A DNA stretch of 18,158 nt, from assembly GCA_937951485.1 (NCBI GenBank), contig CALEDJ010000071.1, positions 1 to 18,158 on the forward strand. Reading direction: 5' to 3'. A program made the translations under genes and the position numbers. How positions within the stretch are numbered: position 1 is the first letter of the stretch; every line of letters begins with the position of its first letter. The notes beneath the pieces were generated by a model, which was not told the DNA's origin, ran no database searches, and saw only the letters and a list, made by a program, of their open reading frames with translations. The stretch is from an uncultured bacterium (GTDB taxonomy: Bacteria > Hydrogenedentota > Hydrogenedentia > Hydrogenedentales > CAILVY01). This document shows positions 8,387-14,055 of the stretch, piece after piece.

Positions 8387-9769
8387 ATGATATCTGCGGT
8401 GGTGTTGGCGGCTGGAGAAGGCCGGGGGACGTGGCCATTCAGCGGCATTCGACAGAAAACAACGGTTCCGGTGCTGCATGTGCCGATGGTGCGGCGCATG
8501 GTCCTGCAATTGGCCGATCTGGGGATTTCCGAAATTGTGGTGGTTACCGGACACCGGGCGGAAGCGGTGCAGGCATGCGTGTTGGACATTCCGGCGGTCA
8601 GGTGCGTGCGACAGGCCGTTTGCCGGGGGCCGGTGGATGCGGCATTGATGGGTTTGGCGGCCGTCTCCGGAGATGCGGTGCTCCTCTGCTGCGCCGACAT
8701 CGTGACGACACGTGACACCCTGCGGCAAACGCTCGACGCTTATACGCACAGCGGCGGCGCGGGTGTGCTGCTGGGGGCGCCGTGTCCGGGGGGATTGCAC
8801 CACTGGGTCACTTTGGAATGCGACGACAGCGGCGCGCTGACCGGCGTGTGGGCGCGCGGGGAGTGCGCCCGCCCGCGCTTCGTGGGGGTTGCCGTTGCGC
8901 CCACGGCGCGGCTGCGTCAGTACTTTGATCGCAATCCCGGCATTATGGAGAACACGGGGGTGGGTTCCATGCCGCCGGTCGAAGGCGACCTTGCATTCAG
9001 TTTTGAGTTGATGCGGCGTGACGGGATTGAAACACGTTGCGTTATCGCGCGGGATTTCGTCGTGGACGTGGACAGGCCGTGGGATATTGTCGAAGCGAAC
9101 AAACAGGCGTTAGGCTACGCCATCGCCTCGGTGCCGGAGAACAGGATCGATCCCGATGCGCGCATTCACGACGGCGCGGAGATTGCGGCCGATGCGCGCC
9201 TGATCGCACAAGCCGGTGCGCAGGTGGGGAAAGGCTGCATCATCCAAGGCTCGGCCATTCTTATGAGCGGCGCGCAAGTGCGCCATGGCGCGATTCTGGG
9301 GTCAGGGGTGTCCATCGGACATCGCGCGCGCGTCGAAGAATATGCCAAAATACATGCGGAGTCCGTGCTTGGCGATGACAGCGTGCTCGCGCATTGCGCC
9401 GAATTCAGCGGCATCACGTTCGATACCGTGTTGATGTACCACTACTGTTGCATTTCCGCGTTGATTGGCACGCATGTGGACATCGGCGCGGCGACCGTCT
9501 GCGGCACTTGGCGATTCGATGACGGTGTCCGCCGACAATATGTTGCCGGTCATTGGGAAACCCCGGCGTGGCACGGCAATCTGAGTTATATCGGCGACTA
9601 TGCGCGGACGGGGGTGAATGCCACCTTTATGCCGGGCGTGAAAGTGGGATGCTATTGTTGTGTGGGCCCCGGCGTTATTGTTTCAGAGGACATCCCCGAA
9701 AGGAAAATGCTCCTGGCTGCGCAACGCCAGATTCAAAAGGAATGGGGTCCTGAACATTACGGCTGGTAA
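8387..9769 (+). CDS. GlmU-like sugar-phosphate nucleotidyltransferase with left-handed beta-helix domain
   Basis: A 460-aa two-domain protein. Residues 1-245 resemble NTP_transferase enzymes that join a nucleotide to a sugar-1-phosphate (LAAGEG at 8-13, IRQKTTVPVL at 21-30, VDVDRPWDIVEAN at 226-238). Residues 255-440 are a left-handed beta-helix of hexapeptide repeats (IDPDARIHDGAEIAADARL onward; GTHVDIGAATV 361-371; ATFMPGVKVG 412-421), as in GlmU acetyltransferase domains. It resembles the archaeal-type bifunctional GlmU more than the E. coli form. Key positions differ: the loop reads GEGRGTWP where relatives have GxGTR, so the usual Arg is Gly, and the metal-site segment reads CADIV rather than a GD motif, though the Asp remains. 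Activity is therefore uncertain. ATG at 8387 follows GGAGAGG by 10 nt. The aldolase gene begins 19 nt downstream. Confidence 0.82.
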   Translation: MISAVVLAAGEGRGTWPFSGIRQKTTVPVLHVPMVRRMVLQLADLGISEIVVVTGHRAEAVQACVLDIPAVRCVRQAVCRGPVDAALMGLAAVSGDAVLLCCADIVTTRDTLRQTLDAYTHSGGAGVLLGAPCPGGLHHWVTLECDDSGALTGVWARGECARPRFVGVAVAPTARLRQYFDRNPGIMENTGVGSMPPVEGDLAFSFELMRRDGIETRCVIARDFVVDVDRPWDIVEANKQALGYAIASVPENRIDPDARIHDGAEIAADARLIAQAGAQVGKGCIIQGSAILMSGAQVRHGAILGSGVSIGHRARVEEYAKIHAESVLGDDSVLAHCAEFSGITFDTVLMYHYCCISALIGTHVDIGAATVCGTWRFDDGVRRQYVAGHWETPAWHGNLSYIGDYARTGVNATFMPGVKVGCYCCVGPGVIVSEDIPERKMLLAAQRQIQKEWGPEHYGW

Positions 9770-9788
9770 AGCGGAGAAAGGAATCGCA

Positions 9789-10682
9789 ATGAAATTCAAG
9801 GCGGACGGGATTATTTCGGCGATGGTGACGCCGTTCACCAGGGACGGGGAGTATGTGGATTACGACAAGGTGGGGGCGTTGGCGCAGTTTCTGGTGAAGG
9901 CGGGCGTGCACGGCCTGTTCCCCTGCGGCACGACGGGCGAGGGGCTGCTCATGTCTCCCGTCGAGCGCATGGAGGTGTTGGAGGAAGTCGTGGCGGCCGT
10001 CGGCGGCAGAACGCTCATCATCGCGCACACGGGCGCGATGGACCTGGCAACCACCATTGATCTGACGCGGCACGCGCAGGCGTGCGGCGCGGACGCCGCG
10101 GGCGTCGTCGTGCCGGGCTACTACGGCTACGACGACGTCTCCCTGGAAAACTACTACCGGCGCATCGCCAAGGCGGTCAAGGGCTTTCCCGTCCTCCTGT
10201 ACAATATTCCATCGTGCGCAAAGAACGCCCTTTCCACAGACCTGGTGATCCGGCTGGCCGAAACGACGGAGAACATCGTCGGCATCAAGGACAGTTCCGG
10301 CGACATGGCATCGCTGACCCGGCTGATTGGCAATGCCCCCAAGGGCTTTCAGGTGATCAACGGTGCGGATGATTACGGCTATCAAGCCTTCCTCGCCGGG
10401 GTGCCCGGCGCGGTCTCCGGCACCTCGAATGTCGTATGGGACGTGTACCTTTCCGTGTACACCCAGATCAAGAAAGGCGATCTCAAGAAGGCCTGGAAGG
10501 CTCAGGTGGTGCTGGAAAAAATGTGCCGCGTGCTCGAATATGGGCACAAGGCCGCAATCTTCAAGGAGGGATTGCGACTTCGCGGCTTCGACGCGGGGTA
10601 TGTGCGGCCGCCCCAACGCGAACTCACCGTCGCCGAGAAGAAACGCCTCGCCAAGGACCTGGCCGCCGCCGGGATCATTTGA
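9789..10682 (+). CDS. DapA/NanA-superfamily class I aldolase (dihydrodipicolinate-synthase-like)
   Basis: A 297-aa TIM-barrel lyase, the usual length for the family. GTTGEG (47-52) supplies the threonine pair, Y138 in LLYNIPSC is the catalytic tyrosine, and K167 in VGIKDSSGD forms the Schiff base. Known members condense or cleave pyruvate with an aldehyde. True DapA enzymes have Arg in YN(V/I)PSRT to hold the amino-acid carboxylate; here the segment is YNIPSCAKN, with Cys143 instead. Lysine synthesis is therefore unlikely, and a sugar-acid, sialic-acid-like or keto-deoxy-sugar substrate is more probable (inference). The start at 9789 follows GGAGAAAGGA by 6 nt. It shares an operon with the upstream nucleotidyltransferase, which also points to carbohydrate metabolism. 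Confidence 0.9.
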   Translation: MKFKADGIISAMVTPFTRDGEYVDYDKVGALAQFLVKAGVHGLFPCGTTGEGLLMSPVERMEVLEEVVAAVGGRTLIIAHTGAMDLATTIDLTRHAQACGADAAGVVVPGYYGYDDVSLENYYRRIAKAVKGFPVLLYNIPSCAKNALSTDLVIRLAETTENIVGIKDSSGDMASLTRLIGNAPKGFQVINGADDYGYQAFLAGVPGAVSGTSNVVWDVYLSVYTQIKKGDLKKAWKAQVVLEKMCRVLEYGHKAAIFKEGLRLRGFDAGYVRPPQRELTVAEKKRLAKDLAAAGII

Positions 10683-10783
10683 GTTGACGGTTTGGCCGGT
10701 CTCATGACTGCGCCGCAAGCGCCGACCGAAGGTCTCCAAGTACACTAAAGACGCCAAGGCCCCTGTGGTCGCCGGGGGCGGGA

Positions 10784-11956
10784 TCATTTGCGGCGCAACA
10801 TGTCCTCGTAGATGTCGGAAAGCGCGTCAGCGCAGCGCGGGAGGGAGAAGCGGGCAAGAGCGTGTTCGCGGCCATGCTGGGCGAGTTCGCGGCGGCGCCG
10901 CGCATTCCGGATGAGTTCGGTGATGACCTCATAGAGCGCGACGAAATCGTTCGGCTGGCACAGTACGGCGGCATCTTCCGCGATTTCCGCTACAGCACCG
11001 GTGCAGGTGCTGACCACCGGCGTGCCGGCGGCCATCGCTTCGATGAGCGTCATGCCGATCTGCTCCTGCCATTCAGGCGTGGCGATGCTGGGCAAAACAA
11101 AGAGGTCCGCCGCCCGGAAGGCCTCCGGCATCCGTTCGTAGGGCAGCGCGCCGGCGAAAAGGCACGCCTCGCGCACACCAAGCCGTTGGGCCAGATGTTC
11201 GATGCGGTCCCTGTCCTGGTCCGGGCCGACCATCATCAGGCGTACCCGATGACGACGCAACGCCGGGTCGCGCACCAGTTCGCGCAGGGCAAGGAGCAGA
11301 AAATCAATGCCCTTGCGCGGCAGGAACCACCCCACAAAGAGGATGACGAAATCATCCGGGCCCAGCCCGAATGCCGCACGGTTGGCCGGGCCGGGCGCAA
11401 ACTTGTCCGTGTCCACCCCCGGATCAATCTTGACGATGCGTTCAGTGGGAACATGCTCCAAGTCGAGCATGCGAAACGAGCGTTCAGTGTACACAATGAA
11501 GCGGTCGGCATGGGCGGCGACCTGCCGCTTGATTTCCCTGCGAACGGGGTTACGCTCCATGTTGAAGGGGATGTTGTCCCAGACCATCACTGCGATCGGA
11601 ATCCCCCATCGGGCGCGCGCCGCCACCGCCTCCGCCGACCAGTCGGTAAACAACTCCCAGGACTGGATGATGTCGAAGTCTTGAAGGCGTTCATGGAAGG
11701 GAAGGATATGCGGTTCGCGCCCGGCATATCGCGAGAGCAGAATGTTGCGCACGCGCCGCGCGATCGGCCCCGCCTGCGTGTCGAAATGGATGAATTCCGC
11801 CGGGAAAGTCGGCATATCGCGGCTGCCGGGCAGGGAATCCCCGCGGGTTTCGGTGTGCGTGCAAAAAGCGGTTATCGCGGGGTTGCCGCGCAGCATCCTG
11901 AACGCGTGAAAATGCCACGGACTGAGACGATTACCTGCGAGAAGCGCCAGTTTCAC
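10784..11956 (-). CDS. GT4-family glycosyltransferase
   Basis: A 390-aa GT-B-fold enzyme that transfers a sugar from an activated donor, probably in the cytoplasm or at the inner membrane. The N-terminal acceptor half is variable. From about 200 the Glycos_transf_1 domain is clear: VILFVGWFLPRKGIDFLLLA (204-223), MMVGPD (241-246), and RAADLFVLPS (281-290). The donor-binding EX7E motif lies in EQIGMTLIE (E298, E306), followed by AMAAGTPVVST. Translation starts with GTG at 11956, preceded by a strong GGGAGG about 7 nt upstream. It is last of four genes on this strand, 84 nt after the GMC oxidoreductase; functional linkage to it is unproven. Donor and acceptor cannot be read from sequence. Confidence 0.92.
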   Translation of the reverse strand: MKLALLAGNRLSPWHFHAFRMLRGNPAITAFCTHTETRGDSLPGSRDMPTFPAEFIHFDTQAGPIARRVRNILLSRYAGREPHILPFHERLQDFDIIQSWELFTDWSAEAVAARARWGIPIAVMVWDNIPFNMERNPVRREIKRQVAAHADRFIVYTERSFRMLDLEHVPTERIVKIDPGVDTDKFAPGPANRAAFGLGPDDFVILFVGWFLPRKGIDFLLLALRELVRDPALRRHRVRLMMVGPDQDRDRIEHLAQRLGVREACLFAGALPYERMPEAFRAADLFVLPSIATPEWQEQIGMTLIEAMAAGTPVVSTCTGAVAEIAEDAAVLCQPNDFVALYEVITELIRNARRRRELAQHGREHALARFSLPRCADALSDIYEDMLRRK

Positions 11957-12040: not shown

Positions 12041-13588
12041 TCATTGCGCCGCTTCCGGCCCAAGGGTCTTCCCCAATAGCCGCTGCGCGAGGCGCGTGCC
12101 CAGCATCATGATCGTCTCCTGCGGATTCACACCGAGCGCCGTCGGCACGGCGCTGCCGTCGCAGACGTACACGCCCGGCGCGCCGAAGACCTCATGGTCC
12201 GGCCCGCAAACGCCCTGCTCCGGCGTCGCGGCCATCCTGCACGTGCCCAGTGGATGGAAGGCCATGCACTCGATGTCCGCCGCGCGCAGCGGGCTGCGCT
12301 CGAAGCGGTCCACGTCCTCCAAGGAAGTGAATTCATTATCACGCCGGACAAGCATCGCCCAAGCGCGCTTCGCGCCGTGGCGAAGGAAAAGCCGCGCCAG
12401 CCATGCGAACGCCCGCTTGAAGCGGCGCACATCTGTGGAAGTGAGCGAATATATGAAGCGATAGCCGAGCAACGGCAGGCGCACCATGCGCCCTTCGGCG
12501 GTGTCGCTGATGAGAAAGCCATAGGACGCCATATGGCGGTAATTGCGGATGTAGTGGGCCAGGCGGTGACCGGACAGCGGATTTGCCGCGCCGCCCAAAT
12601 CCGGCGGCATCGTGATCCCCTCAAACATGATGCCGTCGTCGTGCAGCCCGTCGTAGCCGTACGCCTGGGGAATGCCTTCCCAGGGTTTGATTTCCTCATC
12701 AAATTCAGCGGCCACCTTGCTGGCCGGGTGTATTGCGAGGTGGCGTCCGAGATGCCGGTTGCCCCGGGCGATTCCGCTGCGCTTGAGCAACACCGGCGTC
12801 AGCAAGGTGCCGCAGGCGACCAACACGCGCGGCGCGTGGAGGGTCAGTGTATGACCCGTTGGCCGCCCGGTGTCGTCCACCGCCGCCGCGCGTACGCCCG
12901 ACGCACCATATCGGTCAAGCAGAATCCGATCCGCGCGGGCATGCACATAGACAACCGCGCCCGCACACAGCGCTTTCGGCAGATAACTCACCGCCATGCT
13001 TTTTTTCGCGCCGGAAGTGCAGCCGTAGCAACACATGCCGCAACCTTCGCATCCGGGCGCATTGCGCGGGAGCGGCGCGCCGGAAAGCCCTTCTCCCCCG
13101 ATGAATTCATGCACAAGAACGTTTGGGCGGCTCATCACCCTGAATGCCGCCGGGGCCACGCCGATTTCTGCTTCCACGCGATCAAAGAGAGGGGCGATCG
13201 CGGCAGGGTGCATATCCTGCAATCCGAATTCATTGCGCCAACGCGCCAGCACGGCCTCGGGCGTGCGGAAACAGGTCCCGGAATTGACGGTGGTGGTGCC
13301 CCCGAAGCAGCGGCCCAGCGGAACGGGAATCACCGGCGCGCCGATGGTCGCCGTGATGCCGCCGTCGCGGTACATCCGCTGGATCGCCTGCGAGGCGAGG
13401 TCGCGATGTTCGAAATGGCATCCGCCTTCCTCCAGCACCGCCACGCGCATCCCGCCTTCGGCGAGTTCCTTCGCCGCCGGCGCGCCGCCCGCCCCCGTTC
13501 CTACCACCACCGCGTCATAGGTTTCCACAATGTCATGCGACAGTGCGGCAGCGTCCCGGATGCCTTGCGGTGCTGCGTTCTGCGTCAT
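12041..13588 (-). CDS. GMC-family FAD oxidoreductase, long-chain-alcohol-oxidase-like
   Basis: A 515-aa flavoprotein. The FAD-binding Rossmann motif is VVVGTGAGG (27-35), the GMC N-terminal signature is RCFGGTTTVNSGT (93-105), and the C-terminal GMC domain contains FHPLGTCRM with the probable catalytic His445, then VCDGSAVPT and N488 in GVNPQETI. A Cys cluster, GCEGCGMCCYGCTSGAKKS (179-197), gives C180, C183, C186, C187 and C190. A similar Cys-rich segment before GAK(K/R)S occurs in fatty/long-chain alcohol oxidases. The likely reaction is oxidation of a hydrophobic alcohol. Its start ATG overlaps the stop of the upstream small gene (ATGA, 13585-13588), implying translational coupling; AGGGGA lies about 8 nt before the start. 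No signal peptide is visible. Confidence 0.9.
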   Translation of the reverse strand: MTQNAAPQGIRDAAALSHDIVETYDAVVVGTGAGGAPAAKELAEGGMRVAVLEEGGCHFEHRDLASQAIQRMYRDGGITATIGAPVIPVPLGRCFGGTTTVNSGTCFRTPEAVLARWRNEFGLQDMHPAAIAPLFDRVEAEIGVAPAAFRVMSRPNVLVHEFIGGEGLSGAPLPRNAPGCEGCGMCCYGCTSGAKKSMAVSYLPKALCAGAVVYVHARADRILLDRYGASGVRAAAVDDTGRPTGHTLTLHAPRVLVACGTLLTPVLLKRSGIARGNRHLGRHLAIHPASKVAAEFDEEIKPWEGIPQAYGYDGLHDDGIMFEGITMPPDLGGAANPLSGHRLAHYIRNYRHMASYGFLISDTAEGRMVRLPLLGYRFIYSLTSTDVRRFKRAFAWLARLFLRHGAKRAWAMLVRRDNEFTSLEDVDRFERSPLRAADIECMAFHPLGTCRMAATPEQGVCGPDHEVFGAPGVYVCDGSAVPTALGVNPQETIMMLGTRLAQRLLGKTLGPEAAQ

Positions 13589-14055
13589 GGTTCGATCCCC
13601 TTCGGGCAGGGCGACCGCGTATCCTCGGACATGCCCGTGCGGTGGCGCAAGGTTTCTTCATAGCCGATGAAACATAACAGTTCCGGCTCCTGAAGCAGGT
13701 TGGCCAACGTTGTCAACTTGATCAGTCTGAATAGGTCGCGCTTGAGGGAAAGGCGGTTGAATTCCCAGCCCTCCAACCGCCGCAACCGCGCTGCCAGAGG
13801 CAGACGGCTGAAGCGTCGCAGGCAACGCGGCGAGAACAGCGGCCCCCATTCGATGGCCAATAGTGACAGGCGAAATGCCGACACCAGTATCAGGGGCAGG
13901 CAGTCGAGTTGGTCTTGCAGCCGCGCCGCAACACGGTCCGGCGCCGTTCGCGACAGAATCGCCTCATCCTCCGCAACCAGGGTGCGTAACACCGCCCCCA
14001 GCGCGCGACGTTCCCCGGAACGCAACCGCCGCAACCATGGTGCATCCATACGCAT
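13585..14055 (-). CDS. Small helical protein coupled to GMC oxidoreductase (putative detached N-terminal domain)
   Basis: A 156-aa protein rich in Arg and Leu with no signal peptide. A hydrophobic stretch (CLPLILVSAFRLSLLAIEWG, about 52-71) is followed by RFSRLPLAARLRRLEGWEFN, a Leu-rich helical region and CFIGYEE (128-134). This order resembles, from memory, the N-terminal extension of plant and yeast long-chain alcohol oxidases (a KF(S)xLSxxKREKxLxxW helix followed by xxIGY), which precedes the FAD domain. Here it is encoded separately, with ATGA overlap to the oxidoreductase, so a dedicated partner or membrane-associating subunit is inferred. The start at 14055 has GGGGAAAG about 7 nt upstream; ATG two codons later is an alternative. 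It could also be an unrelated small subunit of gluconate-dehydrogenase type. Confidence 0.7.
   Translation of the reverse strand: MRMDAPWLRRLRSGERRALGAVLRTLVAEDEAILSRTAPDRVAARLQDQLDCLPLILVSAFRLSLLAIEWGPLFSPRCLRRFSRLPLAARLRRLEGWEFNRLSLKRDLFRLIKLTTLANLLQEPELLCFIGYEETLRHRTGMSEDTRSPCPKGIEP

Follow-up and report, generated by a model that had tools for sequence, protein, structure and literature searches.

The closest described relatives of the gene pair analyzed here are FAD-dependent dehydrogenase complexes built on a GMC protein. In the FAD glucose dehydrogenase of B. cepacia, the ligands of a 3Fe-4S cluster are Cys212, Cys218, and Cys222, and a disulfide connects Cys152 of the gamma subunit to Cys213 of the alpha subunit (PMC6719666). 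The gamma subunit is required for folding and secretion (PMC5979317). The known long-chain alcohol oxidases (LCAOs) of plants and fungi are GMC proteins as well (PMC9299179). The stretch of DNA that we analyzed, referred to here as the window, is an 18,158-nucleotide contig (C71) of a 4.55-Mb Hydrogenedentota genome that is 94% complete. It contains a small gene followed by a GMC gene, and this pair is a divergent member of the known arrangement. We think it probable that the pair specifies a single FAD-dependent alcohol dehydrogenase with a hitchhiker-type small subunit, in which a cluster would mediate electron transfer to a membrane acceptor.

A first-pass annotation of this DNA had proposed a long-chain alcohol oxidase whose N-terminal domain is encoded by a separate, coupled gene. 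The sequence features that it described are all present. The 156-aa gene and its ATGA overlap with the GMC gene were confirmed (Table 1), and the pattern F-x2-LP-x3-R-x3-L-x2-W is matched exactly by residues 82 to 97 of the small protein (FSRLPLAARLRRLEGW). The IGYE motif occupies residues 130 to 133, the hydrophobic stretch peaks at residues 50 to 68, and the Cys-rich GAKKS segment of the GMC protein reads C180-x2-C183-x2-C186-C187-x2-C190-TSGAKKS. A Shine-Dalgarno-like run, AAGGGG, lies shortly upstream of the GMC start codon, and in the small protein's nine-member clade, at least five members keep the ATGA overlap. A profile built without this clade recovered the small ORF at an E value of 3e-25 among 3607 ORFs, indicating that it is a real conserved gene. 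Within the clade, R90, W97, and Y132 are invariant, and C150 is one of six invariant positions. MAGs of Candidatus Hydrogenedens and Candidatus Hydrogenedentes contain close matches of the GMC protein. We rejected an operon partnership with the upstream pseudouridine synthase gene, which only L111 shares among the loci that were compared. On the downstream side of the GMC gene, a 370-aa ORF with no meaningful Pfam match (window positions 9675 to 10787, minus strand) overlaps a GT4 glycosyltransferase gene (10784 to 11956).

Table 1. Features of the small-GMC gene pair, in window coordinates
Feature	Position	Strand	Basis
Small partner subunit gene, 156 aa	13585..14055	(-)	ORF and family profile
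GMC flavoprotein gene, 515 aa, catalytic subunit	12041..13588	(-)	ORF and Pfam
ATGA stop/start overlap of the small and GMC genes, 4 bases	13585..13588	(-)	Translational coupling
PCPK tail of the small protein, containing C150	13600..13611	(-)	C150 invariant in the nine-member clade
Motif helix FSRLPLAARLRRLEGW of the small protein	13765..13812	(-)	Motif match
IGYE motif, end of the conserved helical core of the small protein	13657..13668	(-)	
Cys cluster C180-x2-C183-x2-C186-C187-x2-C190-xxGAK of the GMC protein	13004..13051	(-)	Alignment to 3Fe-4S ligands

Profile comparisons indicate that the small-protein family is a remote branch of Gluconate_2-dh3 (PF13618), the "hitchhiker" subunit of FAD dehydrogenase complexes. 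Matches to PF13618 were detected in 20 of the 54 family members (best E value, 5.8e-11), with two exceeding the Pfam cut-off, and hhalign of the small-domain family against canonical PF13618 gave 97.7% (E value of 1.4e-12 over 117 columns), compared with <1% for control alignments of unrelated families. The relation to gluconate 2-dehydrogenase subunit 3, which the first-pass annotation had listed for checking, is therefore supported for the broad family. In keeping with this assignment, a relative in Alteromonas is named "gluconate 2-dehydrogenase subunit 3 family protein" by NCBI. In the window, the small gene has the position of a Gluconate_2-dh3 subunit gene, just upstream of GMC; the homology was seen with the broad family and not with the window clade alone. 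Searched by itself, the window protein matched nothing significantly in Pfam, NCBIfam, or PDB and did not reach the curated cut-off of PF13618 (23.4 bits); the nine-member clade did not match canonical PF13618, probably because it is too shallow, and no PF13618 match at an E value of 1e-8 was found in the genome that contains the window.

The small protein is modeled confidently as a helical bundle (pLDDT of 92), and one helix of this all-helical model is hydrophobic. Foldseek found no similar solved structure for the model, and a PDB profile search with the small-domain alignments did not retrieve the 6a2u gamma subunit; a relation is compatible with both negative results. The window protein has no match to Tat models and no signal-like N terminus, and a Tat signal is present in other members of the small-domain family. 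PDB entry 8s2y, in which a GMC protein carries an N-terminal extension of 130 residues, was examined as a candidate fusion and discarded, having no match to the small-domain profile.

The GMC protein matches PF00732 (4e-47) and PF05199 (6.7e-20) and has the Rossmann FAD motif GTGAGG; its catalytic pair is likely the His in AFHPLG and the Asn in VNPQ. Among PDB entries, the fused-family profile matched 6a2u_B best, the B. cepacia FAD glucose dehydrogenase alpha subunit. The Cys cluster is part of the alignment: C180, C186, and C190 fall on the 3Fe-4S ligands C212, C218, and C222. Of 52 GMC rows, 51, 52, and 52 have Cys at the respective positions of this C-x5-C-x3-C pattern. The name "oxidase" used in the first-pass annotation is not supported by this comparison, as the cluster matches the 3Fe-4S ligands of FAD glucose dehydrogenase in both spacing and alignment, which makes an electron-transferring dehydrogenase likelier than an enzyme that uses O2. 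The cluster has an extra, fourth Cys, represented by C183 in the window, that tends to accompany a Cys in the tail of the small domain (23/27 versus 5/25; Fisher P value of 4e-6, with the tail Cys scored by eye and related rows, not independent events, being counted). This covariation is compatible with the tail of the small subunit touching the region of the cluster, possibly via a disulfide. In Deinococcus radiodurans, a 688-aa GMC protein (L123:2446-4509) followed by an aldehyde dehydrogenase has the Cys cluster replaced (HAGFGDQTGAKQGT). The Deinococcus fused protein, which has lost the cluster, matches the small-domain profile weakly (E value of 0.016).

The alternative that survives best, although we consider it unlikely, is that the pair is a true FAO-type long-chain alcohol oxidase split in two, with the GMC protein reducing O2 to H2O2 and the Cys cluster serving a structural role without transferring electrons. 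The order of motifs in the small protein may resemble that in the N terminus of Arabidopsis FAO, judged from a provisional sequence; the part of this N terminus from the motif helix to IGY scored 33.6 bits against the family profile, which we treat as a lead, and 16 bits against the window clade. A fused relative, L078, contains an FAO-like segment (C-G-x-C-x3-C-x2-GAKQST), and the plant and fungal LCAOs share the GMC fold family (PMC9299179). The single chain of N-terminal extension plus GMC that is a trait of EC 1.1.3.20 is represented in the window by two genes and is fused in 20 related loci. What speaks against the oxidase is that the C-x5-C-x3-C pattern is nearly universal in the family and coincides with proven 3Fe-4S ligands, and that the FAO sequence used for the comparison is a provisional one.

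The dehydrogenase reading draws further on the association of the two genes. The small protein and its 13-row profile served as queries in a search of up to 386 genomes, and we read the DNA around the matches. A GMC gene directly follows the small domain, or is fused to it, at 53 of 54 distinct loci. The two genes are split, small before GMC, at 33 of these 54 loci, and at 20 they form natural fusions, single ORFs of 635 to 769 aa in which the small domain is always N-terminal and GMC lies behind it. Only L104 (1712-2146) had no GMC gene in the stretch read. On a GMC tree of 55 rows, the split or fused state changes eight times, and at least five of the changes are forced by well-supported branches. 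Such repeated conversion between two genes and one indicates that the linkage of the small domain with GMC has been retained. The survey proposed in the first-pass annotation thus revealed conserved adjacency across unrelated families and fusions in the predicted domain order.

At one locus, L121, the small and GMC genes share a reading frame and are separated by only one stop codon, and we used this chain, with the stop read through as a linker, as a surrogate for co-folding. The linked model had a pTM of 0.92, and its only long stretch below a pLDDT of 50 was the linker (123-139). From this pTM, we infer that the small domain is docked on the GMC protein. In addition to FAD glucose dehydrogenase, the model was near fructose dehydrogenase, choline oxidase, and cholesterol oxidase. 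Adjacency, the 20 fusions, the confident linked fold, and the covariation of Cys residues between the small protein and the GMC cluster all favor the earlier suggestion that the two proteins form one enzyme.

These observations also bear on whether the small protein might act only as a chaperone, helping the GMC protein to fold or assemble and staying outside the working enzyme. The precedent is the gamma subunit of FAD glucose dehydrogenase, on which folding and secretion depend (PMC5979317). However, the 20 permanent fusions, the confidently packed model, and the fusion of the small domain to a membrane protein in many genomes, described below, favor a stoichiometric subunit, and a role as chaperone only seems to us quite improbable. 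The fused state of the sister clade on the GMC tree might suggest that the window pair is itself a natural fusion broken by a frameshift from assembly or sequencing. This reading can be dismissed almost entirely because all nine Hydrogenedentota members of the window clade, which come from separate genomes, have the two genes split; the genes have start codons of their own, and most of the pairs overlap by ATGA.

We therefore take the small protein to be a stoichiometric partner subunit of an alcohol dehydrogenase with a membrane acceptor. The first-pass annotation had suggested "a membrane or partner subunit"; the partner role stands, and the membrane role most likely belongs to a separate protein with three or four predicted transmembrane segments. 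In the relatives L111, L113 to L117, and L121, a gene for such a membrane protein begins a cassette, followed by genes for a 350-aa protein, the small protein, and the GMC protein; in L111, a pseudouridine synthase gene is inserted into the cassette. The 350-aa protein has repeated weak matches to tocopherol cyclase (E values of 0.0026 to 0.0044) that fall below the Pfam cut-off. Two genomes outside the phylum have the same order: four separate genes in L182 and, in L176:1129-4253, a fusion of the membrane and cyclase-like proteins ahead of a fused small-GMC protein. Direct fusion of the membrane protein to the small domain occurs in L106 to L110 (L106 being cut at its 5' end), L120, L138 to L140, and L177 to L179, and its gene lies beside a fused small-GMC enzyme in L075 to L077 and L079.

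Across the 386 genomes, the small domain is also present in 37 of the 41 with the membrane gene and 34 of the 38 with the cyclase-like gene (P values for co-occurrence of 6e-34 and 3e-30, respectively). Outside the phylum, the corresponding values are 6e-17 and 2e-19. The genome that contains the window has membrane and tocopherol-cyclase-like genes side by side on contig C16 (L131:6911-8724, about 96910-98720), unlinked to the small-GMC pair on C71. We also looked for a multi-heme cytochrome c. The window has no ORF with at least two CxxCH motifs, and among the stretches read, including the C16 stretch in L131, such ORFs occur near small-GMC only in L081 and L082. There, the two-CxxCH ORFs near the fused small-GMC genes are a possible cytochrome acceptor in the L081/L082 lineage.

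The following mechanism would be consistent with these results. The 515-aa GMC protein would oxidize an alcohol at FAD, and an iron-sulfur cluster bound by C180, C186, and C190 would take up the electrons from FAD and release them to a membrane acceptor; they would not go directly to oxygen. The 156-aa small subunit would pack on the GMC protein near the cluster and stabilize it, and C150 might form a disulfide with one of the extra cluster Cys residues, C183 or C187. As the small subunit lacks a Tat signal, the complex is probably on the cytoplasmic side. In the relatives, the membrane protein, whether a separate product of the cassette or a fusion partner of the small domain, would be the likely anchor. 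The substrate would, on slight grounds, probably be a lipid-like or long-chain alcohol, given the cyclase-like partner and the aldehyde dehydrogenase genes that follow the related small-GMC pairs of Alteromonas and Deinococcus.

A broader proposal, which we put forward tentatively, is that the predicted anchor of three or four segments, the tocopherol-cyclase-like protein, the hitchhiker-type small subunit, and the Fe-S GMC protein constitute an undescribed four-part membrane redox system that feeds electrons from lipid alcohols into the quinone pool without cytochrome c, and that the N-terminal extension of eukaryotic FAO is the same subunit in permanently fused form. In the literature searched, we found no description of a four-part membrane-linked gene set and no paper that combines GMC oxidoreductase with bacterial long-chain alcohol oxidase or GMC family oxidoreductase with gluconate 2-dehydrogenase subunit 3. 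What gives the locus its value for follow-up is this four-part membrane version, together with the possible FAO link. Single-chain fatty alcohol oxidases and multisubunit FAD dehydrogenase complexes, usually treated as separate groups, would be joined via one small domain that moves among three states: a separate gene, a fusion to the enzyme, and a fusion to a membrane protein. Three kinds of protein with little or no annotation thereby gain testable roles, and the cassette is a named candidate for laboratory study of how GMC enzymes hand electrons over to membranes.

Several known systems can be set beside the pair. In Streptomyces (NZ_CP109361), DUF5987-GMC pairs likewise have a small gene that overlaps the GMC start by four bases. 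In one of these (L153:2799-5038), the small partner encoded by the DUF5987 gene looks unrelated, and DUF5987 was rejected as a relative of the small domain, having no match to its profile. PF13618 shares profile-profile homology with the small-domain family over the whole domain, whereas the Pfam model does not detect the window protein or its clade. The plant and yeast long-chain (fatty) alcohol oxidases likewise have a GMC protein and differ from the window in its two genes and Fe-S ligand set. Closest are the FAD glucose dehydrogenase of B. cepacia (gamma-alpha, 6a2u/8grj) and fructose dehydrogenase (7w2j), which are among the best profile and structural matches of the window family, at about 15% identity to the linked model. 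In contrast to these enzymes, the window small protein has no Tat signal and the pair has no adjoining cytochrome c subunit, with a different membrane partner in the relatives. Like the window pair, they combine a small helical subunit with a GMC subunit, and they share with it the C-x5-C-x3-C cluster, the Cys in the C-terminal tail of the small subunit, and the extra Cys of the cluster.
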